A stretch of DNA of 64,000 nt from contig JAQTQB010000001.1 of assembly GCA_028712475.1 (NCBI GenBank), forward strand, positions 584,180 to 648,179, read 5' to 3'. Positions 29,312-61,327 of this stretch are shown in pieces. The number at the start of each line of letters is the position of its first letter. The stretch's first letter is position 1. The stretch comes from Verrucomicrobiales bacterium. Its GTDB lineage: Bacteria; Verrucomicrobiota; Verrucomicrobiia; Limisphaerales; UBA11358. A program made the translations under genes and the position numbers. Under the pieces are notes generated by a model that was not told the origin of the DNA, ran no database searches, and saw only the letters and a program-made list of their open reading frames with translations.

Positions 29312-30178
29312 ATGGCAATCATCGGCAAACGCAATCTGCTCTCCGTCGTCCGGGAATCGAGTCCCGGCCTGTATCTCGACGGCGGCGAGCTGGGCGAAAT
29401 TCTTCTGCCTGGCCGTTACATCCCCGCGAACCTTGCGCAGAAGGACAAGATTGACGTGTTCGTCTATCGCGATTCGGAAGATCGCCTCGTGGCCACCACC
29501 GAAACCCCGAACGCCATGGTCGGCGAGTTCGGCTACATGAAAGTCATCAACGTGCATCCGCAGGTCGGCGCGTTTCTGGACTGGGGCTTGCAGAAGGATC
29601 TTCTGGTGCCGTTTCGTGAACAGGAATTTCCCCTGCGCGTCGGTGATTGGGCGATTGTCTATGTTGCGCTGGATGTGAAGACGAATCGCATCCTCGCCAG
29701 CACGCGGCTGAACCGGCACCTCAACCGTGAACCCGCCGCATATCGCGATGGCCAGCCGGTGAACCTGCTTATCACCGGCAAAACGCCGCTCGGCTACAAT
29801 GCCATCGTGGACAACGCGCATCGTGGGCTGCTTTATAAAAGCCAGCTTGCGGCGGCCTTGAAGACCGGACAGAAATTGAAAGGTTTCGTCCGCACCGTGG
29901 GGCCCGGCGGCAAGATTGATTTGAGCCTCGACGCTTCCGGTTACAAACGCGTCGCGCCGCTGACGAACCTGATCGTCGAAGCCCTGCAAGCCGCCGGCGG
30001 CAAGCTCGCCTTCGACGATGACAGCTCGCCCGCCGCCATCCGGGAAACTTTTGGCGTGAGCAAGAAAGCGTTCAAGCAGGCGCTAGGGAAGCTTTACAAA
30101 AGCCGTCGCATCGCCTTTCTTAAACCCGGAATTCAACTGCTGGAAAATTCATCCTGGGTGCCAGGAACCAAACCATGA
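29312..30178 (+). CDS. cvfB: S1-type RNA-binding protein CvfB
   Basis: A 288-residue protein of the CvfB/YitL family: several S1-like beta-barrel modules (GGELGEILLPGRYIP; KVINVHPQVGAFLDWGLQKD; GFVRTVGPGGKIDLSLD) and a C-terminal winged helix (FGVSKKAFKQALGKLYKSRR) with the basic end IAFLKPGIQLL. Binds RNA; it affects virulence factor expression in Staphylococcus, and the biochemical role elsewhere is unclear. Its TGA overlaps an ATG (30175) that is the start of a degenerate copy of rnr, indicating that cvfB and rnr were once directly coupled before a TA pair inserted between them. Confidence 0.88.
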   Translation: MAIIGKRNLLSVVRESSPGLYLDGGELGEILLPGRYIPANLAQKDKIDVFVYRDSEDRLVATTETPNAMVGEFGYMKVINVHPQVGAFLDWGLQKDLLVPFREQEFPLRVGDWAIVYVALDVKTNRILASTRLNRHLNREPAAYRDGQPVNLLITGKTPLGYNAIVDNAHRGLLYKSQLAAALKTGQKLKGFVRTVGPGGKIDLSLDASGYKRVAPLTNLIVEALQAAGGKLAFDDDSSPAAIRETFGVSKKAFKQALGKLYKSRRIAFLKPGIQLLENSSWVPGTKP

Positions 30179-30233
30179 ACGAACAAATCCTCCGGCTGCT
30201 GGAGCAAAGGATTACGTCCCATTGAGCGCGGAG
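30171..30233 (+). repeat. degenerate duplicate of the rnr 5' end
   Basis: These 63 nt match 30959-31022, the start of rnr, at all but a few positions: one 1-nt deletion that shifts the frame, and about three substitutions. After about ten matched codons this copy goes out of frame and the similarity ends. It marks one flank of the inserted TA pair at 30287-30921; the intact copy is at the other flank. Confidence 0.88.
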
Positions 30234-30286: not shown

Positions 30287-30511
30287 ATGAGCACGGTGGA
30301 TTTGATTTACGAAAAAGCCAAAACGCTCCCGGGTAAATTGCAGTCGGAGGCCCTGGGCTTTGTGGAATACCTTGGCCGCCGCCGCACCGCCCAGGCCGAG
30401 GCGGGCGAGTGGCAGCGGCTGGCGCGCACCACGCAAGCCCTGCCCGCCGCCCAGCGCCTCACGGATGCGGATATCGCCGCTGAAATCGCCGCCTACCGCG
30501 CTGGCAAATGA
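30287..30511 (+). CDS. DUF2281-like antitoxin of a PIN toxin pair
   Basis: A 74-residue protein beginning MSTVDLIYEKAKTLPGKLQ, with ALGFVEYLGRRR in the first half, a pattern seen in DUF2281/VapB-like antitoxins; the tail is acidic and helical (TDADIAAEIAAYRAGK). A frame start 12 codons upstream exists, but this ATG fits the family. Its stop overlaps the start of the PIN-domain gene by 4 nt. It would neutralise the toxin and probably autoregulate the pair. Confidence 0.78.
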   Translation: MSTVDLIYEKAKTLPGKLQSEALGFVEYLGRRRTAQAEAGEWQRLARTTQALPAAQRLTDADIAAEIAAYRAGK

Positions 30512-30921
30512 GGGTGGTCATTGACACGAACGTCGTGGTTTCGGCCATTCTCCGCGACCGGCTTCCCGAAAAGATTTTATTGTTCGTCCTCGGTCATCCT
30601 GACTTTGAATGGGTGGCTTCCGGGGAAATTCTGGCGGAATATCGCGAGGTGCTGCGCCGCCCCAAGTTCGCGTTGCCGGATCCGGTCTTGTCCGAATGGG
30701 ACGAACGCTTCCGCTCGGCCGTCGCGGAATGGCCGGTGGAAATTTCAGTTTCATTTCCGCGCGATGTGAAGGATGCCAAGTTTCTGGCCTGCGCGCTGGC
30801 GGCAGAGGCGGATTTTTTCATCACCGGCGACCATGATTTCACCGAAGCGCGAAAGCTTGAACACACAAAAATTATTTCGGTGAACCAATTTAATGAACTC
30901 GTCTGCCAGCCTTTAAGTTGA
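30508..30921 (+). CDS. PIN-domain toxin (putative ribonuclease)
   Basis: A 137-residue PIN domain of the COG1569 type: MRVVIDTNVVVSAILRD (first catalytic Asp), EILAEYREVLRRPKF (Glu), DAKFLACALAAEADFFITGD (two further acidic residues, Asp) ending in the usual SVNQFNEL. Such proteins cut RNA with Mg2+ and are inhibited by the upstream partner. Start overlaps the antitoxin stop (ATGA). The pair sits between a degenerate and an intact copy of the rnr start, so it is an insertion. Confidence 0.87.
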   Translation: MRVVIDTNVVVSAILRDRLPEKILLFVLGHPDFEWVASGEILAEYREVLRRPKFALPDPVLSEWDERFRSAVAEWPVEISVSFPRDVKDAKFLACALAAEADFFITGDHDFTEARKLEHTKIISVNQFNELVCQPLS

Positions 30922-30962
30922 CGAAAGCAAAGTCCGCTTAACGGCCTGGCAAGCTTAAAACC

Positions 30963-33338
30963 ATGAACGAACAAATCCTCCGGCTGCTGGAGCAAAAAGA
31001 TTATGTCCCGTTGAGCGCGGAGAATCTGCGCCGTCATCTGCGCGTGCCGCCCGACCGCGAGCCGGAGTTTGAGCGCACGCTGCGCAAGCTGGAGCGCGAA
31101 GGTCAGATTGTGCAGATCAAGGCCAGCCGTTATGTCCGCACGAGCGATGCGGATTTGATTCCCGGCCGCATCCGCATGAACCGCGCGGGCAAAGGTTTCC
31201 TCCAGCCGGATGACACGGGCCTGAAAGAAATCGCCATTCCTGAAAGCGCCACCGGCACGGCGTTGCACGAAGACCGCGTGCTGGTGCGCCGCGATGTGCG
31301 CCGGAAAAATTTCCGCGATGGCGACCAGGAGACCGGCACGGTCGTCCGCATCCTCGAACGCAAGCGCACCCAGATCGTCGGCACACTGGCGCAGGGCCGC
31401 AACTCGCTCTACGTCATTCCCGACGACCCGCGGATGCCGCATGACATTTATGTGCCGCCGGCGCGCGACGTGGGCCGTCCCGGACGCGTCGGCGACAAAG
31501 TAGTGGTCGAACTGCGCGAATGGGAATCGCGCCACACCAGTCCCGAAGGTGAAATCGTGGAAGTCCTCGGCGCGCCCGATGCGGAAGGCGTGGACATGCT
31601 GTCCGTTCTGCGCCAATACGATCTGCCGCTGCATTTTCCCAAGGCCGTGCTGCACGAGGCGCACGCCATCGGCACGACGGTTCACCCCCACGACTTGGCG
31701 GACCGCTTGGATTGCCGCGCGCATAACGTCGTCACGATTGATCCCGATGACGCGAAAGATTTTGACGATGCGATCTGTCTGGAGCGTGTCTCGCCGGAGC
31801 AATGGCGGCTGTGGGTTCACATCGCCGACGTGTCGCATTACGTCAAGCCCGGCACCGCGCTCGACGAGGAAGCGCAGAAGCGCGGCAATTCCACCTACCT
31901 CGTGGACCGCGTCATCCCGATGCTGCCGGAAGCGTTGAGCAACGAACTCTGCTCGCTGAAACCAAACGTGGACCGCCTGACCAAATGCGTGGAGTTTCTC
32001 GTGGCGCACGACGGACGCGTGTTGAGCACGAAATTTCATTCCGCCGTCATCCATTCGCAACGCCGCTTCGCCTACAAACAAGTGCTGGAGATTTTGCAGC
32101 GCGCGCCCACGGACGACCCGATTGAGCAGATGTTGCATCGCGCGCATGATCTGGCGCAAAAGATCCGCCGCCACCGGTTCAAGAACGGTTCGCTTGACCT
32201 TGATTTTCCGGAAACCAAAATCCGGCTGGACGAGCAGGGGAAAATTCTGCGCATCGAGAAAAACGAGAATGACGTGTCGCACCAGTTGATCGAGGAATAC
32301 ATGCTGCTCGCCAACGAAGCCGTCGCGACGCGCCTGATGCACCTCCGCACGCCCGCGATCTACCGCATTCACGAAGAGCCGGACGCCCGCCGCCTGCAGG
32401 AATACCGGCAGGACGTGTTAAGTCATAATGTTCCGTGCGGCAACTTGAGCCAGCCCGCCGAGGTGCAAAAGCTGCTGAACAAACTCGGCACGCTGCCCAT
32501 CGGCCAGGCGTTGAAGATTGGATTTTTGAAATCGCTCATGCGGGCGCGTTACGCGGTCGAGCCGCTTGGGCATTACGGATTGGCCAAGAAAAAATACACG
32601 CACTTCACCTCGCCCATCCGCCGCTACGCCGACCTCGTGGTGCATCGCGCGCTGTTCGATAAAAGCGCGCCAAAACTCGGTGCGCTAAAACCGGTCGCCG
32701 AACACATTTCAGTCACTGAACGCAATTCCGCCGACGCCGAGCGCGACAGCAAGGACGTGAAGTTGTTCGCGTTTCTGAAGGCGCAACTGGAATCCGGCGA
32801 ACCGCAAAAATATCCCGCGCTTGTGACCGACGTGCGGAACTTCGGTTTTTTCGTGGATGTGCCCGGCCTGGCGATGAGCGGCCTCGTGCCGTTGTCCACG
32901 ATTCAGGACGACTTTTATGTCTTCGACGAATCGCGGAGCAATCTGGTTGGCCGTCGCACGCGCCGTATAATCAGGCTTGGCGACAAACTAACCGTGCAGG
33001 TGGCCAAGGTGGACAGCTTCAAGAAGCAGGTGGATTTCTGCCTCGCCGTCGAGGAAGGCAAATCCGCTTCACCGCGTCCGCAGCAACATCAACAGCACCC
33101 GAAACGTCCGCAATCATCACGGCGGGATTCAAAACGTCCGGCGTCCTCGCGTCCGGGAAGTTCGCGGCGGCAGGATTCGCGTCCGGGCAAATCACAGAAT
33201 GTGCGCAAGTCAGACGAGCGTCCGCAAAACCCCAAGCCGGCGATGTTTCAAACTTCCGGCTCAAAGTTTTCCACCGCACAACGCCCGCTGATCAAATCCA
33301 GCGGCGCGGGCCGTTTCTCCAGGCGCCGCCGCCGTTGA
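30963..33338 (+). CDS. rnr: ribonuclease R
   Basis: A 3'-5' exoribonuclease that degrades structured RNA. The 791-residue protein has an N-terminal helix-turn-helix (MNEQILRLLEQKDYVPLS), cold-shock domains, an RNB catalytic domain with the acidic cluster IDPDDAKDFDDAICLE (about residue 260), HFTSPIRRYADLVVHR, and an S1 domain (VTDVRNFGFFVDVPG). The last 80 residues are a Gln/Pro/Ser/Arg-rich basic tail, likely disordered RNA-binding. Its first 64 nt exist in degenerate form just after cvfB, showing that this gene was separated from cvfB by a TA insertion and kept its start. Confidence 0.95.
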   Translation: MNEQILRLLEQKDYVPLSAENLRRHLRVPPDREPEFERTLRKLEREGQIVQIKASRYVRTSDADLIPGRIRMNRAGKGFLQPDDTGLKEIAIPESATGTALHEDRVLVRRDVRRKNFRDGDQETGTVVRILERKRTQIVGTLAQGRNSLYVIPDDPRMPHDIYVPPARDVGRPGRVGDKVVVELREWESRHTSPEGEIVEVLGAPDAEGVDMLSVLRQYDLPLHFPKAVLHEAHAIGTTVHPHDLADRLDCRAHNVVTIDPDDAKDFDDAICLERVSPEQWRLWVHIADVSHYVKPGTALDEEAQKRGNSTYLVDRVIPMLPEALSNELCSLKPNVDRLTKCVEFLVAHDGRVLSTKFHSAVIHSQRRFAYKQVLEILQRAPTDDPIEQMLHRAHDLAQKIRRHRFKNGSLDLDFPETKIRLDEQGKILRIEKNENDVSHQLIEEYMLLANEAVATRLMHLRTPAIYRIHEEPDARRLQEYRQDVLSHNVPCGNLSQPAEVQKLLNKLGTLPIGQALKIGFLKSLMRARYAVEPLGHYGLAKKKYTHFTSPIRRYADLVVHRALFDKSAPKLGALKPVAEHISVTERNSADAERDSKDVKLFAFLKAQLESGEPQKYPALVTDVRNFGFFVDVPGLAMSGLVPLSTIQDDFYVFDESRSNLVGRRTRRIIRLGDKLTVQVAKVDSFKKQVDFCLAVEEGKSASPRPQQHQQHPKRPQSSRRDSKRPASSRPGSSRRQDSRPGKSQNVRKSDERPQNPKPAMFQTSGSKFSTAQRPLIKSSGAGRFSRRRRR

Positions 33339-44017: not shown

Positions 44018-44905
44018 ATGAACGAACCCATTTTACAGCTCGACCTGCCCGGCATTACCAAAGTCCGCTCCGGCAAGGTCCGCGAAGTCTATGACCTTGG
44101 CGACGCCTTCCTGCTCGTCGCCAGCGACCGCATCTCCGCCTTCGACGTCATCATGCCCAACGGCATTCCGCGCAAGGGCGAGGTGCTCACGCAGATCTCG
44201 CATTTCTGGTTCGAGAAATTTGCCTCAATCGTGCCGAACCACCTGCTCGCCAAGGCGGATGATCCGCTGCCGAAAAATTTGCAGCCGTTCGCTGCCCAGC
44301 TAGCACGCCGCTCGATGATCGTGAAAAAGGCCAAACCGCTCGCCATCGAGTGCATCGTGCGCGGTTATCTTTCAGGCAGCGGCTGGAAGGAATACAAAAA
44401 ATCCCAGACCGTCTGCGGCATCCAACTGTCCGCCGGCCTGACCGAATCCGCCGAACTGCCCGAACCGATTTTCACGCCGTCCACCAAGGCCGAGGCCGGC
44501 CACGACGAGAACATTTCCTTTGCGGAGGCATGCAAGATTGTCGGCACCGACCTCGCCACCCAGGCGCGCGACTTGAGCCTGATGATCTACAAGGCCGGAC
44601 GCGATTACGCCCGCCAGCGCGGCATCATCATAGCCGACACGAAATTCGAGTTTGGATTGTTCGAGGGCAAACTCATCCTCATTGATGAAGTGCTCACGCC
44701 CGATTCCTCGCGCTTCTGGCCCGCCGACCAATACGCGCCCGGTCGCGGCCAGCCAAGCTTCGACAAGCAATTCGTCCGCGATTACCTCGAAACGCTGACG
44801 TGGGATAAAACCCCGCCCGGCCCGGTGTTGCCCGCCGACGTCGTCGCCAAAACCAGCGCGAAGTATCTGGAAGCGTATGAGAAGCTGACGGGCAGAAAAC
44901 TGTGA
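44018..44905 (+). CDS. purC: SAICAR synthetase (phosphoribosylaminoimidazole-succinocarboxamide synthase)
   Basis: Joins CAIR and aspartate with ATP in purine synthesis. The 295-residue yeast/long-type protein has SGKVREVYDLGDAFLLVASD, DRISAFDVIMPNGIP, IECIVRGYLSGSGWKEY, SFAEACKIVG and LIDEVLTPDSSRFW. The start at MNEPILQLDLPG is preferred to an ATG at 43946 inside the repeat element. The last 61 nt of the gene recur at 45428-45488 (54 of 61 identical), and its TGA overlaps the GTG start of the next small gene by 4 nt. Confidence 0.94.
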   Translation: MNEPILQLDLPGITKVRSGKVREVYDLGDAFLLVASDRISAFDVIMPNGIPRKGEVLTQISHFWFEKFASIVPNHLLAKADDPLPKNLQPFAAQLARRSMIVKKAKPLAIECIVRGYLSGSGWKEYKKSQTVCGIQLSAGLTESAELPEPIFTPSTKAEAGHDENISFAEACKIVGTDLATQARDLSLMIYKAGRDYARQRGIIIADTKFEFGLFEGKLILIDEVLTPDSSRFWPADQYAPGRGQPSFDKQFVRDYLETLTWDKTPPGPVLPADVVAKTSAKYLEAYEKLTGRKL

Positions 44906-45204
44906 CCGAAATCACCAAATCCAAAAACGGCGTATTCATCCGGCTCACGGACGAACGCTGGTCGCACATCAGCGAGGAACACGCCGAGCTGGCGGGTTTG
45001 AAGTTGGACGTGCTGGAAACCGTGGCCGAGCCGGAACGGATTCTGGCTGGCGGCGCGGGCGAACTCCTCGCGCTCAAAAAACAAACCGATGGCAAAATTC
45101 TCGTGGCCGTGTATCGTGAGGAGGCTGGCGACGGCTTTGTCGTCACCGCGTTTCTGACGCGGCGCGAAGCCGCGCTCAACCGGAGAAAGCAATTATGGCC
45201 GTAG
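44902..45204 (+). CDS. small protein of a TA-like pair (BECR/DUF4258-like)
   Basis: A 100-residue protein starting at GTG 44902 inside the purC stop. It contains IRLTDERWSHISEEHAELAG, AEPERILAGGAGELLALKK and DGFVVTAFLTRREAALNRR, a conserved pattern of small proteins found beside DUF2283 genes. The short alpha/beta fold with His and Arg residues resembles RelE/BECR-type RNases, so a toxin role is plausible but unproven. Its stop overlaps the partner start by 10 nt. Confidence 0.72.
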   Translation: MTEITKSKNGVFIRLTDERWSHISEEHAELAGLKLDVLETVAEPERILAGGAGELLALKKQTDGKILVAVYREEAGDGFVVTAFLTRREAALNRRKQLWP

Positions 45205-45422
45205 CCGAAATCAACGAATATGTGAAGATGCTGGCCACCGTGAAAGGCACGCCGCATCGCTACCTCTGGTCGTCCTACGATGCCGAGGCCGATGTGCTTT
45301 ACATCAACTTCAAAAAGCCCAGTCACGCCACTGATTCGGAAATGACCGACGACGACATCCTCGTCCGCTACGAAGGCGAGGAAGTGGTCGGTCTGACCGT
45401 GCTGCACGCCAGCAAACGCTGA
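45195..45422 (+). CDS. DUF2283 protein, probable partner of the upstream gene
   Basis: A 75-residue protein with the DUF2283 signature SYDAEADVLYINFKKP, then DDDILVRYEGEEVVGLTVL. DUF2283 proteins are common as the second gene of two-gene TA-like modules. The pair occupies exactly the space between the two copies of the purC 3' end (44845-44905 and 45428-45488). Confidence 0.78.
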   Translation: MAVAEINEYVKMLATVKGTPHRYLWSSYDAEADVLYINFKKPSHATDSEMTDDDILVRYEGEEVVGLTVLHASKR

Positions 45423-45427
45423 ACGCC

Positions 45428-45488
45428 CGCCAAAACCAGCGCGAAGTATTTGGAAGCGTATGAAAAGTTGACTGGCAAAAAACTTTAA
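45428..45488 (+). repeat. duplicate of the purC 3' end
   Basis: 61 nt match 44845-44905 with seven substitutions and no indel. It still reads as the last PurC codons (KTSAKYLEAYEKLTGKKL) and ends TAA instead of TGA. It has no start of its own, so it is a vestige or the original tail displaced by insertion of the 44902-45422 gene pair. Confidence 0.92.
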
Positions 45489-45501
45489 CTCTGCGCGTCA
45501 T

Positions 45502-46236
45502 ATGAAAGGACTACTCGTTCGCGTTGGCGCTGATCAAAGTGAAGGAGGTGGTCACTGGAATGGATTGGTGAACAGCCGAACCGGAGAATTTGTTTATGTT
45601 CCAATTCCCGAAACCGGCACGATTTTTCCGCAGTTTGAAAAGCCTTATTCATTGGTGAAACCGGCACTTGAACGATTCGGTTTTTCACTGCCTGGTTATT
45701 TGGCTGGGAACAAAATGCACCTTGATCCAGATTTTTCTCATTTGAGTTATGGCGATCAAGGCCAGCGGGCTGCACAAATTTCGACAAAATTGGGAGAGGG
45801 TGACTTACTGGTTTTCTATGCGGGCTTGCGTGACGTTCATCCGCAACCGCGATTGATTTACGCCATCATTGGATTTTACGTTGTTGATCGAATTGAAAAA
45901 GCGTCGTCAGTTTCACCGATGCTACACGATGCAAACGCGCACACTCGCCGAATTTTGTCACCAAGCTCGACGGACATTGTGATTCGAGCGAAGCCGGCGA
46001 TTTCGGGACGCCTTGAGAGATGTTTACCGATTGGTTCGTTTCGCAAACCGGCAGGACAACCACAAAAAAATCCCTCTTACCGTGTTGAGAGCAGTCTGTT
46101 GGAAAATTGGGGCGGATTGAGCATGGCTGACGGTTTTTTGCAGCGCAGTGCTCGCCTGCCTGAATTCAACGACGCGAATCGTTTCTATGATTGGTTTTCG
46201 GGACAACGAGTGCCGCTTCTCCAAACCAACAACTGA
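45502..46236 (+). CDS. nucleotide-modification-associated (Nmad3-like) protein
   Basis: A 244-residue protein whose N-terminus MKGLLVRVGADQSEGG then GEFVYVPIPETG resembles the Nmad3 pattern (R.G.D.S.GG ... IPIP), a domain predicted to act in DNA base hypermodification systems. Other marks: FSHLSYGDQGQRA and LGEGDLLVFYAGLRD. It is followed 6 nt later by an Nmad2-like gene, which supports the call. Lower GC than purC suggests transfer. No modifying enzyme (such as a TET/JBP or glycosyltransferase) is visible next to it. Confidence 0.6.
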   Translation: MKGLLVRVGADQSEGGGHWNGLVNSRTGEFVYVPIPETGTIFPQFEKPYSLVKPALERFGFSLPGYLAGNKMHLDPDFSHLSYGDQGQRAAQISTKLGEGDLLVFYAGLRDVHPQPRLIYAIIGFYVVDRIEKASSVSPMLHDANAHTRRILSPSSTDIVIRAKPAISGRLERCLPIGSFRKPAGQPQKNPSYRVESSLLENWGGLSMADGFLQRSARLPEFNDANRFYDWFSGQRVPLLQTNN

Positions 46237-46242
46237 CAAAAT

Positions 46243-46843
46243 ATGAAGCCAAAAATCTTCGTTTACAAAATGGTCGCCGACAACGGGGGGGGCGCCATGT
46301 GTTTGGCACGGTTTGTTGAGCCTAGCGATTTGCAAGCCGAAGATTCGCAAAAGCGCTGACGAAGGAGATTTTATTTTGGGTTTTGGTGGCAGAAGCCGAT
46401 TCCCCAAAGAACCTTTGATTTACATAGCGAAGGTTACAGCAAAGCCCAAAGTTGGCGAATACTACAAACTGCCAAAGTATGAGAATCGGCCAGATTGTAT
46501 TTATCACGGTGTTGACGGCGAGGTTCGACTGAAAACCAATGCTCATTTTCACAACAAATCCGATGAGCGAAAAACGGACGTTGGTTGGCACTTTGAAAAC
46601 GCATATGTCTTGTTGAGCAATGATTTTCGCTATTTTGGATCAGAAGCAACGGCTGAATACAAAAAGCAATTTCGTCTGATTAAAGATTTAGTCGAAAAAC
46701 TCAATCGAGGCGCACGAGTCAATCATCCGCCAGAAAGATATAATGAGCTTTTAGATTTGGTGAGTCAAACTTGGCGCAACAATTCCGAAAAGCAAATTGG
46801 CAAACCGACCCATTTGGACAAAAGCTTGGTTTGTAACAAATAA
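46243..46843 (+). pseudogene. Nmad2-like gene with frameshift at a G8 tract (possibly phase-variable)
   Basis: The gene starts MKPKIFVYKMVADNGG at 46243 but after the run of eight G (46285-46292) the frame leads to a TGA at 46357-46359. With seven G (or one less mod 3) the reading becomes GAPCVWHGLLSLAICKPKI, the conserved Nmad2 core, and continues to 46843 (DFILGFGGRSRFPKEPLIYI; HFENAYVLLSNDFRYFG). So it is either a decayed or phase-OFF allele, or a sequencing error in the homopolymer. Nmad2 is predicted to be part of DNA base modification systems. Confidence 0.7.
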
Positions 46844-54025: not shown

Positions 54026-54877
54026 TTATTTCAAATGTGTCACTTTGAATGTGTATGCCAAGCCATAAAGATTTTCCTTTTCGTAGTCAAAATTAGCGGG
54101 AGATTTGGTAAGTTTTTCAGCTCCAAAATCCATGTAGTCATCTACAACCCGCACCTTTTCCACCAATTTTGCAAGTTGGCCACAAAAATCGCTTGGAAGG
54201 TCAATTTCACTTGCTTGCTTTAGATAGCTCTTTGCTTCGGCAAGAGGTAAGCGATTTTCTACTATCGTGCTGTCATAAATATGACGTGTATTTTTTAGGC
54301 TAAAAATCTTTTGTTCAAGTTCAGAAAAAAACGCTTTGAACCCTCTCCAAAACAACTCAACTTTTTCTTTTTGAGCGGCTTTCTTCTTTTCTTCCTGCTG
54401 CGCGGCGTTTTCATCTCTGCCCATGTCTGCAATTTCATCAGGCGCTGCTTCATCGGTGCTGCTGCCGCGTCGGATATAAACTGTATTGCTTTTTAAGCGC
54501 CCGAAATTTTTCGTGAGAAAAATTGGGCGTTGCTGCGCTTTATCAATTTGAATGACGGTGAGATTTACTCCTTCGTGCTGTCGCACTTCAATTCGGAATG
54601 ATATTGGACGATTTGTTTTAGAATTTACGAACTGTTGCAGGTCAGAATCACGAAGAGTAATTTCAGCACCGCATAAATGTTTCATTCTTCCGTGTTCTTC
54701 CTCAACGCCAATCAAAATATATCCATCGGAATCTTTCCACGCATTGCCGAATGCGAGAATATCTTTGAGCAGTTCACTTTTCTCTTCATCGCTCGAAAAT
54801 GGATATTGTTTGCTTTTGAAGTCGAGCGTTTCACTTTCGCTTCGATGCAAAAGCGCAGTTAAATCAATTACATTCAC
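54026..54877 (-). CDS. AlbA_2/Schlafen-type DNA-binding protein
   Basis: A 283-residue protein: [46 protein letters not shown]-type AlbA_2 core, and [14 protein letters not shown]. The C-terminal half is Lys/Glu-rich and helical ([19 protein letters not shown]). The family occurs in regulators and in anti-phage proteins. Markedly A/T-richer than ruvB and carB on either side, so likely acquired. Its ATG overlaps the stop of ruvB by 4 nt, so it is co-translated with ruvB despite its foreign composition. Confidence 0.85.
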
Positions 54878-55905
54878 AGTGACAGTCCGGGCTGGTTTCC
54901 AGAGGATTTTTTCAAGCCGAGTTTCTTGTAACTCAATTCCGTCGCGACGCGGCCTTGCGAGGTGCGGTTGAGGTAGCCTTCCATGATGAGATACGGCTCA
55001 TACACTTCCTCGATCGTGTCCGGTTCCTCGCCCACGGCGACGGCGAGCGAATTCACGCCGACCGGCCCGCCGCCGAATTTCGTGATGACGGCTTCGAGGA
55101 TGCGCTTGTCCATTTCGTCGAGACCGTTTTCGTCAATCTCCAGCATCGCCAGCGCCTTGTCGGCGACGGCGGCGGTGATGCGTCCGTCGTGACGCACTTG
55201 CGCGTAATCGCGGACGCGACGCAATAAATTATTTACGATGCGCGGCGTGCCACGGCTGCGCCGGGCGATTTCATGCGCGCCGGACGGGTCAACTTCCACG
55301 TTGAGCAGATTCGCCGAACGGATGACGATTTTATCCAGGTCGGCCACGCAATAATAATCCAGCCGTTCGCGCATGCCGAAGCGCGTGAGCAACGGCGCGG
55401 TGAGCAGGCCGCTGCGCGTCGTCGCGCCGATGAGCGTGAAGCGCGGGAGATTCAGCCTGACGCTGCGCGCGTTCGGGCCTTGGTCAATGATGATGTCCAG
55501 TTTGAAATCCTCCATCGCGGGATAGAGATATTCCTCGATGGTTTTTTGCAGGCGATGGATTTCATCAATGAACAGCACGTCACCTTCTTCAAGATTCGTG
55601 AGCAGGCCGGCGAGGTCGCTGGCTTTTTCAATCGTCGGGCCGCTGGTGGCTTTGACATTCGCGCCCATCGCCTTCGCCAAAATATTTGCGATGGTGGTTT
55701 TGCCGAGGCCGGGCGGGCCGGACAGCAGGATGTGATCAAGTGATTCGCCGCGTTGCCTGGCGGCGGTGACGGCGATTTCCAGACGCTCCTTCACTTTCGG
55801 CTGGCCGGTGAAATCGGAAAAGAGCGACGGGCGCAGCGTCATTTCAAGCGCGACGTCGGGTTTGTTCAAAGTGGAAACGGTATGTTCGGCCATCGCGTCC
55901 AGCAT
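54874..55905 (-). CDS. ruvB: Holliday junction branch migration helicase RuvB
   Basis: AAA+ motor that, with RuvA, drives branch migration of Holliday junctions. Marks: [19 protein letters not shown], Walker [10 protein letters not shown], Walker B FIDEIH, sensor 1 [11 protein letters not shown], arginine finger [11 protein letters not shown] and the winged-helix end ([34 protein letters not shown]). Start [12 protein letters not shown] at 55905 (or MAEHTVST at 55893); longer frames are not conserved. About 340 residues, normal for the family. A degenerate copy of its first 45 codons occurs at 58680-58816 between the two hppA genes. Confidence 0.96.
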
Positions 55906-56067
55906 GGGAAATGCGGTGTGCAGCGACAAGGTCAAATGCGCCGCGTCAAGGCAGGCGATGGAACCGGTGGCGCGACAGTTCAATTTTGGAGGACTCTTTG
56001 CCAATAAACAGTCAGCAAAGACGATTAAGCATGCTTAAGGTAAGCTCGTAAAATTTGTAAAACTTTT

Positions 56068-58662
56068 ATGAATATAAATAAAATCTCTTCGTGGTCACTG
56101 GCCTGGTTGTTCACCGCCGGCTTTGTCACGAGCGCGTCTGCCAGCGAGGCGAGCATTAAAATCCCCGACCTTACGCAGGTGACCTTCACCGGACTGGGCG
56201 GCATGAGCGGCGTGATGTTGCTGTATCTGGGCCTGGTGATGTGCCTGTTCGGGGCGGCCTTCGGGCTGGTGCAATACCGGCAGACCAAGGCGTTGCCGGT
56301 GCATCAAAGCATGGCTGACGTGTCGCACACCATCTGGGAAACCTGCAAGACCTACCTGTGGCAGCAGGGCAAATTTCTGCTCATCCTCTGGCTGCTGATC
56401 GCGGCGTGCATGGTGTATTACTTTATCGGCCTGCCGTGGCATGATCCGGAAAATCAGTTGAGCCATGGCGCGCTGTTGCGCAACGGCGGCGTCATCCTGC
56501 TGGCGTCGGTGCTGGGGATTCTGGGTTCTTACGGCGTGGCGTGGTTCGGCATCCGCATCAACACGGTGGCCAACTCGCGCACGGCGTTTTCGGCGTTGAA
56601 GGGCAGGCCGCTGCGAACGCTGTTGATCCCGCTTAAATCCGGCATGAGCGTCGGGCTGCTGCTGGTGTCGGTGGAATTGTTCTTCATGATCTGCATCCTT
56701 ACGTTTCTGCCGCGCGAACTGGTCGGGCCGTGCTTCATCGGCTTCGCCATCGGTGAATCGCTGGGGGCGACGGTGCTGCGCATCTGCGGCGGCATTTTCA
56801 CCAAGATCGCCGACATCGGCTCCGACCTGATGAAAATCGTCTTCAAGCTGCCGGAAGATGATCCGAAGAATCCCGGCGTGATCGCCGACTGCACCGGGGA
56901 CAACGCGGGTGACAGCGTCGGGCCGACGGCGGACGGTTTTGAAACCTACGGCGTCACCGGCGTGGCGCTGATCTCATTTCTGGCCCTGGCCCTGACCGAC
57001 AACGCGCCGGTCTGCGCCACGTTGATCATCTGGCTGTTCGTCATGCGGGCGCTGATGGTGGCGACGTCGCTGGCCTCCTATTTCCTGACCACCATCTTCA
57101 ACAACCTCAAATTCGACCATTTGAAGGACTTTGATTTTGAAGCGCCGCTGACGCATCTCGTCTGGATCACCTCGGGGCTGTCCATTGCGGTCACGTTTGT
57201 CGCGAGCCATTTGTTGCTGGTCGGCCAGCCCGGCATTCATTCCGACCTGTGGTGGGTGCTGTCCTGCATCATCAGTTGCGGCACGGTGGCGGGCGCGTTG
57301 ATCCCGGAATTCACCAAAATTTTCACCAGCACGAAATCCATGCACGTCAAGGAAGTGACCAACTGCTCCCGGCACGGCGGCGCATCGCTGAATATCTTGT
57401 CCGGCATGGTGGCTGGCAACATGTCGGCCTTCTGGATGGGGCTGGTCATCCTGATGCTGATGTTCGTCTCCTATCACTTCTCCCATAATGCGGCGCTGCT
57501 GGCGATCATGCCGGAAAAATTCACGTTCGCCGCGCCCATCTTCGCCTTTGGCTTGGTGGCGTTCGGTTTCCTCGGCATGGGCCCGGTGACCATTGCGGTG
57601 GACAGCTACGGGCCGGTGACGGACAACGCGCAGTCGGTCTATGAATTGAGCCAGATTGAAGGCCGCGCCGGGATCCGGGACGAAATAAAGAAAAAATTTG
57701 GGTTCAAGCCGGATTTTGAAAACGCCAAGCATCTGCTCGAAAAAGCGGACGGCGCAGGCAACACCTTCAAAGCCACCGCCAAACCGGTGCTCATCGGCAC
57801 CGCCGTCGTCGGCGCGACAACGATGGTCTTCGGAATCATCATGCTGCTGGAAAATAAATTCGGCAATGTGGTCAACCATTTGAGCCTCGTGCAGCCCGAA
57901 ATCATCCTCGGCCTGCTGGCCGGCGGCGCGGTGATTTACTGGTTCACCGGCGCTTCCACCCAGGCGGTCGTGACCGGAGCGTATCGTGCCGTGGTTTACA
58001 TCAAGGAAAACATGCAGCTCGACGCCACCACCGCCTCCGAAAAAGACAGCAAGGAAGTCGTCCGCATCTGCACCGTCTATGCGCAAAAAGGCATGTGGAA
58101 CATCTTCATCGTCATCTTCTGCCTCGCGCTGGCGCTGGCGTTTTTTGATCCCTATTTCTTCATCGGCTACCTGATCGGCATCGCCTTCTTCGGTTTGTAT
58201 CAGGCCATCTTCATGGCCAACGCCGGCGGGGCGTGGGACAACGCGAAGAAAATCGTGGAAGTGGACATGCGGCAGAAAGGCACCGACCTCCACGCCGCCA
58301 CCGTCATCGGCGACACCGTGGGCGACCCGTTCAAGGACACCTCGTCCGTGGCGCTGAACCCGGTGATCAAATTCACCACCCTGTTCGGCCTGCTTGCCGT
58401 CGAAATCGCGGTGACAATGACCAGCCAGCCGTTGAAAACCGGCATCGGACTGTTCTTTGCCGTCATCGCGCTGACCTTTATTTATCGCTCGTTCTATTGC
58501 ATGCGCATTCCCGAAGAAAAAGTCATTCCGCTGCTGCTTGGAGATGACGAAGAGCCGCCGACAGCCAAAAATCTCTTTCCGGCGACGGAAAGGCCATTTC
58601 CCAGTCTGGCCGGTTCGGAGACATTCGTCACGGATGCGAGCACGCTAAAAACCGGGGCATAA
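56068..58662 (+). CDS. hppA: membrane-bound pyrophosphatase (proton or sodium pump), copy 1
   Basis: Couples pyrophosphate hydrolysis to ion transport across the inner membrane. The 864-residue protein has a signal-like N-terminus (LFTAGFVTSASA), about 16 helices and the substrate loop motifs DDPKNPGVIADCTGDN / AGDSVGPTADGFETYG, SSRHGGASLN-type region (NCSRHGGASLNIL) and DTVGDPFKDTSSVALNP. The GNT(T/F) site reads GNTFKATAKP, with Lys where K+-dependent enzymes have Ala, pointing to the K+-independent class. Divergent from ruvB with 162 nt between. A C-terminal extension of about 45 residues (DDEEPPTAKNLFPATERPF) is absent from copy 2. Confidence 0.94.
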   Translation: MNINKISSWSLAWLFTAGFVTSASASEASIKIPDLTQVTFTGLGGMSGVMLLYLGLVMCLFGAAFGLVQYRQTKALPVHQSMADVSHTIWETCKTYLWQQGKFLLILWLLIAACMVYYFIGLPWHDPENQLSHGALLRNGGVILLASVLGILGSYGVAWFGIRINTVANSRTAFSALKGRPLRTLLIPLKSGMSVGLLLVSVELFFMICILTFLPRELVGPCFIGFAIGESLGATVLRICGGIFTKIADIGSDLMKIVFKLPEDDPKNPGVIADCTGDNAGDSVGPTADGFETYGVTGVALISFLALALTDNAPVCATLIIWLFVMRALMVATSLASYFLTTIFNNLKFDHLKDFDFEAPLTHLVWITSGLSIAVTFVASHLLLVGQPGIHSDLWWVLSCIISCGTVAGALIPEFTKIFTSTKSMHVKEVTNCSRHGGASLNILSGMVAGNMSAFWMGLVILMLMFVSYHFSHNAALLAIMPEKFTFAAPIFAFGLVAFGFLGMGPVTIAVDSYGPVTDNAQSVYELSQIEGRAGIRDEIKKKFGFKPDFENAKHLLEKADGAGNTFKATAKPVLIGTAVVGATTMVFGIIMLLENKFGNVVNHLSLVQPEIILGLLAGGAVIYWFTGASTQAVVTGAYRAVVYIKENMQLDATTASEKDSKEVVRICTVYAQKGMWNIFIVIFCLALALAFFDPYFFIGYLIGIAFFGLYQAIFMANAGGAWDNAKKIVEVDMRQKGTDLHAATVIGDTVGDPFKDTSSVALNPVIKFTTLFGLLAVEIAVTMTSQPLKTGIGLFFAVIALTFIYRSFYCMRIPEEKVIPLLLGDDEEPPTAKNLFPATERPFPSLAGSETFVTDASTLKTGA

Positions 58663-58679
58663 TAAATATCCAGCACCGT

Positions 58680-58816
58680 GCTTTCCAAACGCCCCTTCAC
58701 TTTTGGCTGGCTGGTGAGATCGGAAGAGAGGAGCGGCTGCTGCAGCATCATTTCCAGCGCGGCGACAGGTTTGTTCACAGTGGAAACGGCATTTTTTTGC
58801 CAGTGCCGCCAGGCAT
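58680..58816 (-). pseudogene. ruvB 5' remnant between the two hppA genes
   Basis: On the minus strand it reads STVNKPVAALEMMLQQPLLS and then DLTSQPKVKGRLES, clearly matching the RuvB N-terminus ([33 protein letters not shown]). The rest of ruvB is absent. It marks the endpoint of a duplication that copied the divergent ruvB-hppA region. Confidence 0.9.
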
Positions 58817-58864
58817 GAAAAACCACTGGATAATCAGAGTTCATCCCCCTAGGCTTCCGGCCTT

Positions 58865-61327
<2,463 letters not shown>

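Follow-up and report, generated by a model that had tools for sequence, protein, structure and literature searches.

Genes at the purC locus

The stretch of DNA analysed here (the window; 64,000 nt, positions 584,180-648,179 of contig JAQTQB010000001.1 in the Verrucomicrobiales bacterium assembly GCA_028712475.1, this genome being G000 below) contains a purC gene whose 3' end occurs twice (Table 1). The last 61 nt of purC recur behind a pair of small genes with 54 of 61 positions identical and without any indel, and the direct-repeat search returned them as a 62-nt repeat of 89% identity, likewise indel-free (44845-44906 and 45428-45489), so that the recurrence claimed in the initial annotation was borne out by the repeat search as well as by realignment. 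In the following, the end attached to the body of the host gene is termed copy F and the displaced end copy O. As had also been proposed, either copy is usable as the C-terminus of PurC, each ending in a stop codon behind the residues AKTSAKYLEAYEKLTGRKL and ...GKKL. No further site with at least 42 of 61 matches to the purC end was present on either strand of the whole 698,202-nt contig.

Table 1. Features of the purC and rnr loci in window coordinates, and further bracketed genes from the scan of the contig (positions preceded by C9 are contig positions)
Feature	Position	Strand	Basis or remark
S1/CvfB-like gene upstream of rnr (presumed name)	29312..30178	+	stop overlaps rnr-start copy
Copy O of rnr start, one base short, out of frame	30170..30233	+	repeat search
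VapB/DUF2281-like antitoxin gene	30287..30511	+	DUF2281 E 9.6e-5, TA_VapB E 3.6e-4, both below cut-off
PIN-domain toxin gene	30508..30921	+	PIN_3 E 2.4e-18; TIGR00305 E 1.3e-16
Copy F, start of whole rnr gene	30958..31022	+	repeat search
rnr (RNase R-like, presumed name), host gene	30963..33338	+	N-terminal part matched in 41/49 genomes
purC (SAICAR synthetase), whole host gene	44018..44905	+	Pfam SAICAR_synt E 1.8e-77
Copy F, purC 3' end on gene body	44845..44905	+	54/61 vs copy O
Toxin-like gene, 100 aa, BrnT/RelE-like model	44902..45204	+	weak PBECR2 match; PDB fold match
DUF2283 gene, 75 aa, presumed antitoxin	45195..45422	+	Pfam E 3.9e-13
Copy O, displaced second purC 3' end, stop intact	45428..45488	+	direct-repeat search
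Y1 transposase	C9 23560		bracketed by gene end
Unstab_antitox + ParE	C9 299538		bracketed by gene end
DUF433 + DUF5615	C9 301587		bracketed by gene end
RibD_C	C9 404495		non-TA cargo, bracketed
APS-kinase-like gene	C9 415439		36-nt repeat around gene
HicBA + DUF4160 module	C9 669655		three copies around module
VapB-like + PIN (rnr)			bracketed by gene end in the C9 scan

With respect to family membership, the pair had been described as DUF4258-like and DUF2283, of which the second assignment is clear by profile while the first found no profile support. The 100-aa gene, whose GTG start overlaps the TGA stop of purC, has only a sub-threshold match to PBECR2 (E 0.012) and no NCBIfam match; a model of its product, built from an alignment of 16 sequences (pLDDT 94), has a BrnT toxin as its top PDB match (Foldseek E 0.031, prob 1.00, TM 0.48/0.59), with zero PDB matches at E <= 0.001. 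This weak fold match is suggestive of a BrnT-like protein and not proof of one. The two genes are therefore treated as a toxin-antitoxin (TA)-like pair with a putative toxin activity.

Directly past copy O lies a gene with an Nmad3 domain (45502-46236, Pfam E 5.5e-21), followed by two short frames that overlap each other (46243-46359 and 46313-46843) and resemble a single gene with a frameshift. Elsewhere in the window (55769-60741), long direct repeats stand in tandem, 71-85% identical and spaced about 2.7-2.9 kb apart, and probably represent duplicated genes.

The purC site in relatives

A PurC match was found in 55 of the 59 genomes searched. Downstream of purC, 30 loci were examined, three of them with less than 400 nt of sequence, and a second purC end was found 0.5-0.7 kb downstream in five (G000, G012, G035, G009 and G021); a strict purC-end pattern, which matched in 28 of 49 genus members, occurred more than once in the same five genomes. 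G000, G012 and G035 carry the same toxin-like/DUF2283 pair and all three have the repeat, the latter two being members of the same genus as G000 (Limisphaerales). The site holds other cargo in G009 (a DUF4258-like/DUF2283 pair) and in G021 (a HigBA-like pair), and in G035 the cassettes stand in tandem, a second cassette being followed by a third, slightly damaged purC end. The DNA past copy O at purC had no matches in relatives at the copy border, and a relative of the purC toxin in G263 (80%) had no adjoining purC within 1.9 kb of sequence.

A second case at rnr and a scan of the contig

The initial annotation had paired purC with a gene-end duplicate at rnr. The duplicate exists, but it comprises the start of rnr, which overlaps the stop of the gene upstream, and not a 3' end; the upstream gene we take to be S1/CvfB-like and rnr to encode an RNase R-like protein. 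An empty site, in which the upstream stop overlaps the rnr start by ATGA (gap -4), is seen in eight relatives, that is, in 8 of the 12 loci with the upstream gene found among 30 loci examined. In G000, 784 nt are inserted between the two genes; in G009 this cassette (92%) has lost an internal part and lies immediately behind the ATGA, where copy O was looked for and not found, and G068 has a cassette remnant. Copy F is as close as copy O or closer to all 29 relatives listed, in a comparison that ran 6 nt past copy O and had four rows without alignment.

Terminal inverted repeats were not found in the two window cassettes, in agreement with the initial proposal, local scores of 8 and 6 lying within the shuffled range, and none of the ORFs inserted at purC and rnr is a transposase gene. 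An unbiased scan for all direct repeats above score that lie 250-3000 nt apart on the 698,202-nt contig gave 49 groups, which were sorted by eye. The purC cassette was recovered among the gene-end brackets, together with the other cases in Table 1 apart from the APS-kinase-like gene, which lies within a 36-nt repeat, and most of the remaining groups resemble paralogues in tandem, repeat proteins or non-coding repeats. Two of the pairs are nearly identical (C9 23560/24340 and 669655/670917, 98%). Since the bracketed inserts also include a Y1 transposase gene and a RibD_C gene, bracketing is not exclusive to TA modules. Restriction-modification genes were not found among the cargo proteins profiled in a subset of the cassettes (TA families, Y1 transposase, RibD_C), and in the cassettes that were read no ORF was noticed that would encode an integrase.

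Three further observations concern the layout of such regions. A 225-nt repeat, 99% identical and 1.2 kb apart, lies at C9 342739-344191 (L188) without clear small-gene cargo. In the moxR-DUF58-like area (C9 299538-302391, L185-L187), two bracketed TA cassettes run antisense to their hosts with a 354-aa gene between them. The 5' end of an lpxB-like gene is duplicated before Y1 (RAYT-like) genes in three genomes (G000 at C18 ~54350-55460, L456; L276; L278).

Frequency of gene-end duplicates at TA loci

Direct repeats spanning the gene, within at most 1.5 kb on each side, were present at 21 of 60 sampled DUF2283 and HicA loci, so that the shared outcome inferred initially from two unrelated gene pairs, a host gene left whole, holds far beyond these two cases. 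They comprise 12 of 30 DUF2283 loci (30 of 36 matches sampled, with the purC locus of G000 among the 12) and 9 of 30 HicA loci (from a longer list); 39 of the 60 had no spanning repeat at the threshold used. Spanning repeats also occur at 9 of 26 loci with a relative of the purC toxin from the order. Duplicates are not equally common around non-TA genes, the possibility named in advance as refuting the proposal: none was found at 30 acetyltransferase (GNAT) loci (p = 9.8e-5, Fisher's exact test), and random positions on the own contig gave 19 of 600, some of them true cases (p = 1.4e-13).

Of the 21 repeat-bearing loci 19 were dissected, and by eye the repeats were gene ends in 17 (9 of 11 for DUF2283, 8 of 8 for HicA), the exceptions being L145, with a palindromic, terminator-like repeat, and L150. 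The lengths of 36 hand-collected repeats range from 40 to 134 nt with a median of 76 nt, a list outside which stand L145, L150, L243, L254, C9 404495 and C9 415439 (34-84 nt). The hosts of bracketed cassettes include purC, purQ, thrC, a moxR-like gene, an lpxB-like gene and rnr; the names purQ, thrC, moxR, lpxB, rnr, CvfB and DUF58 are those which we presume from reading the sequences and not profile matches.

Within G000 itself, four of the seven HicA loci are bracketed, one of them weakly (81% over 72 nt). Phylum-wide, 7 of 29 HicA loci had repeats, mostly short or intergenic, with a clear gene end judged only at L413. Y1 transposase loci had spanning repeats in 15 of 30 cases, many of them palindromic, a known feature of RAYTs, and lpxB-like and epimerase-like gene ends also occur there. 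A trans-acting Y1/RAYT transposase was rejected as the mover of the cassettes because many of the repeats at Y1 loci are palindromic and not gene ends; these genes are regarded as another cargo.

Divergence between the two copies

Codon differences were counted in the host frame for 33 copy pairs and came to 134 synonymous and 79 non-synonymous ones, as compared to an expectation of 170 +/- 6.5 non-synonymous differences under random placement (minimum 146 in 2000 simulations), and third positions hold 153 of the 251 nucleotide differences. The non-synonymous share is thus 37%, whereas about two thirds were estimated for the case that copy O drifted freely and the gene changed silently. The 33 pairs include two with Y1 transposase cargo (L278 and C9 23560), and L218 was read in the wrong frame, which works against the conclusion of a synonymous excess. 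Excluded from the count were L145, L150, L161, L231, L240 and C9 404495 (host frame unclear), L243 and L254, L235 (= G000 purQ), the third copy of the purC end in G035, the first of the additional purQ copies in G025, and all Y1 loci other than the two named. Therefore the ends diverged mostly while coding, either because one of them is the end of another lineage or because copy O was refreshed by recombination, and plain target-site duplication followed by drift is ruled out as the whole story. Copies identical at insertion are not what is found overall, given this synonymous excess and the foreign copy F at purQ of G026 (see below), with the two 98% pairs as cases that may fit.

A foreign gene end and layered cassettes at purQ

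The end of purQ is duplicated in 8 of 33 genomes (G000, G005, G017, G025 (twice), G026, G027, G035 and G061), with DUF4160 + DUF2442 as cargo in four, a HigBA-like pair in two, and HicBA with remnants in two. The end of thrC is duplicated in 3 of 30 loci and in G064, and at the empty thrC site of G061, G004 and G006 a conserved next gene directly follows thrC.

At purQ of G026, copy O is followed by the HicBA unit that stands directly after purQ in G061 (95.2%), G000 (94.0%), G009 (90.6%) and G069 (81.5%). Its copy O ends in VAQAA and TAA like the purQ of G009, whereas its own copy F ends, unlike G009, in VAAAA and TGA. Judged by these tails and neighbours, the end on the gene is the foreign one and the displaced end the native one, with the newcomer between them, which implies that one end came from the allele of another lineage. 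G026 is the only genome in which copy O is closer than copy F to most near relatives; in G005 and G027 it is mostly copy F. The suspicion that the second copy might derive from a different purC paralogue was thus right in part, namely in the mostly synonymous divergence and in the foreign purQ end of G026.

Behind the HicBA unit beside purQ stand the remains of older cassettes. In G061 these are the 3' part of DUF4160, most of which the unit has replaced, and in G000 and G009 a HigA remnant, HigB and the start of HigA having been replaced. A one-base gap at the left junction of copy O is common to the O copies of five DUF4160/DUF2442 carriers including G061 and occurs in none of 11 F ends, being less informative in G035, where it sits at the joint itself; the rest of O in these carriers has lineage-specific states. 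For the HigBA type, the O copies of G000, G017 and G025 share a different starting point. From the shared junctions together with the lineage-specific states it seems that each cassette type goes back to one founding joint with later exchanges. In third-position identity the cassettes at purC and purQ resemble core genes and do not stand clearly apart from them. These values fit horizontal and vertical descent alike, and fast recent horizontal transfer of the two cassettes was accordingly discarded as an explanation.

A probable recombination route of entry and its alternatives

Taken together, the data speak for homologous recombination within the gene end, in preference to a transposition-like copying of the target. 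The common insertion mechanism without terminal inverted repeats that had been proposed initially is supported in part, namely as to the recurrent layout and the lack of such repeats in the window cassettes. Probably, a TA-like cassette settles at the end of a core gene by homologous recombination with an illegitimate joint, or by a single crossover of a circle. The donor DNA would be a TA module joined to a host-gene end, here that of purC. On one side, homologous recombination inside the resident gene end would provide the gene with a foreign working end, and on the other side the donor would be joined illegitimately to the resident locus. A joint inside the resident gene end would leave a displaced copy O of about 40-135 nt beyond the module, a joint inside an older cassette would truncate the latter, and a joint past the older parts would leave no visible duplicate. 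Alternatively, a circle of gene end and TA module entering by single crossover would give the same F-TA-O layout. Copy O might then serve as a second homology arm, with which the cassette could move into this gene in further species, irrespective of the sequence downstream. That the purC case is like that of purQ in G026 is inferred, as are the entry route of the DNA, its circular or linear form and the role of O as an arm.

In line with a one-sided homologous anchor, although indirectly, the same HicBA unit joins purQ seamlessly with different neighbours on its right, and G026 combines a foreign copy F with a native copy O. Against the recombination reading, these units all stop at the HicB stop, which is neater than random joints. 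Ku-based end joining was rejected for the illegitimate joint; Ku was found in 1 of 49 genomes, and with Ku nearly absent the joint would have to be made without a known end-joining enzyme.

Long and variable duplicates at many unrelated genes, the lack of terminal inverted repeats in the cassettes at purC and rnr, the existence of empty sites and the near identity of the 98% pairs could also be expected of a true insertion in which 40-135 nt of target DNA are duplicated in some transposition-like or break-repair process and the copies, identical at first, drift apart, a pattern that has been named for restriction-modification genes. Such target duplication is nevertheless rather unlikely, given that the divergence is mostly synonymous, that copy F at purQ of G026 is foreign and that older cassettes have lost the part facing the gene. 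Old vertical insertions, with F-TA-O inherited from an ancestor of the genus, O converted from F and the cassette lost from most lineages by F x O recombination, would agree with the core-like third-position identity, with junctions common to several species and with the lineage-specific synonymous states which O shares with its own F in G005 and G035. This too is improbable, as the TA family found at a given gene end changes from species to species, the differences between O and F are as large as those between species, and the end in G026 has been replaced.

Integrases that regenerate the 3' end of a gene are a standard pattern, and tandem arrays would likewise be compatible with a recombinase that acts in trans on core-gene ends as attachment sites while the element carries the replacement end. 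Site-specific integration of this kind is very unlikely, though, since no integrase was noticed in the cassettes read, many unrelated targets comprise gene starts and gene ends alike, and the length of O varies with the type of cassette. Finally, most of the assemblies are split into many contigs and the relatives that have names come from metagenome binning, but an assembly artefact can hardly explain one and the same pair with its repeat in three genomes and different pairs elsewhere, or their presence on a contig of 698 kb.

Relation to known systems

Insertion of restriction-modification genes with long target duplication was reportedly described by Nobusato et al. in 2000 and Furuta et al. 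in 2010, and homology-facilitated illegitimate recombination by de Vries and Wackernagel and by Prudhomme, both in 2002. Integron gene cassettes are small, rich in TA modules, arranged in tandem and each followed by a repeat, as are the cassettes found here, in which, by contrast, it is the local host gene whose end forms the repeat, and no integrase was noticed in the cassettes read.

Long target duplications around restriction-modification genes are a described kind of insertion, in which a selfish and apparently self-mobile module is flanked by long and variable target repeats of about 100 bp (PMC1643837, PMC3874152, PMC2749054, PMC4978471). The present loci share with it the long variable direct target repeats and the single-copy empty sites (rnr, thrC). 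They differ in the TA-like cargo, the Limisphaerales host, repeats made of gene ends, mostly synonymous divergence, arrays and, in one case, one end that is demonstrably foreign; they are set apart here because the copies, the 98% pairs aside, do not look as if they had been identical at the outset and the cargo is another.

Closer to the preferred recombination reading are E. coli recombinants with duplications of the lacZ end of 109-950 bp, explained by circularised DNA and a single crossover (PMC3240628). Those products likewise combine a homologous anchor with an illegitimate joint, but the gene-end duplications there are experimental and arise in laboratory constructs, whereas here they would be a recurrent natural outcome involving TA modules and many genes. 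For effector-immunity modules of the Vibrio cholerae T6SS, sequential displacement by the same recombination model has been proposed, newcomers entering beside a conserved part and pushing older, truncated modules downstream (Kirchberger et al. 2017, PMC5361080). No T6SS is involved at the loci described here, the displaced part includes the end of the host gene, and there are many host genes.

Titles and abstract openings of the open-licence literature gave no report of TA modules with gene-end duplicates. The kind of insertion is already known from restriction-modification genes, while TA cargo on such a scale, the arrays and the shared junctions look new.

Implications for the spread of TA modules

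How chromosomal TA modules without a transposase enter new genomes and are kept there is an unsettled question, and their fixation has been called "not yet understood" (PMC2654758). Among the DUF2283 and HicA loci sampled, between about a quarter and a third retain a scar of entry, and in a favourable case this scar tells the foreign from the native gene end, so that the route becomes testable by comparison. The findings suggest that a copy of the gene end lets TA pairs settle without breaking the host gene, a route of spread that needs no transposase, and TA, restriction-modification and T6SS effector modules would be linked under one recombination-based way of moving. More tentatively, and with some doubt on our part, TA modules might be self-arming recombination cassettes, which carry the captured end of a gene along as their arm of homology, while recombination of F with O frees a circle of TA module and gene end that could enter this core gene again, in any relative, through one crossover. 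If this were true, they would move without an enzyme of their own, core genes would serve as species-independent docking sites, and arrays resembling those of integrons would result.
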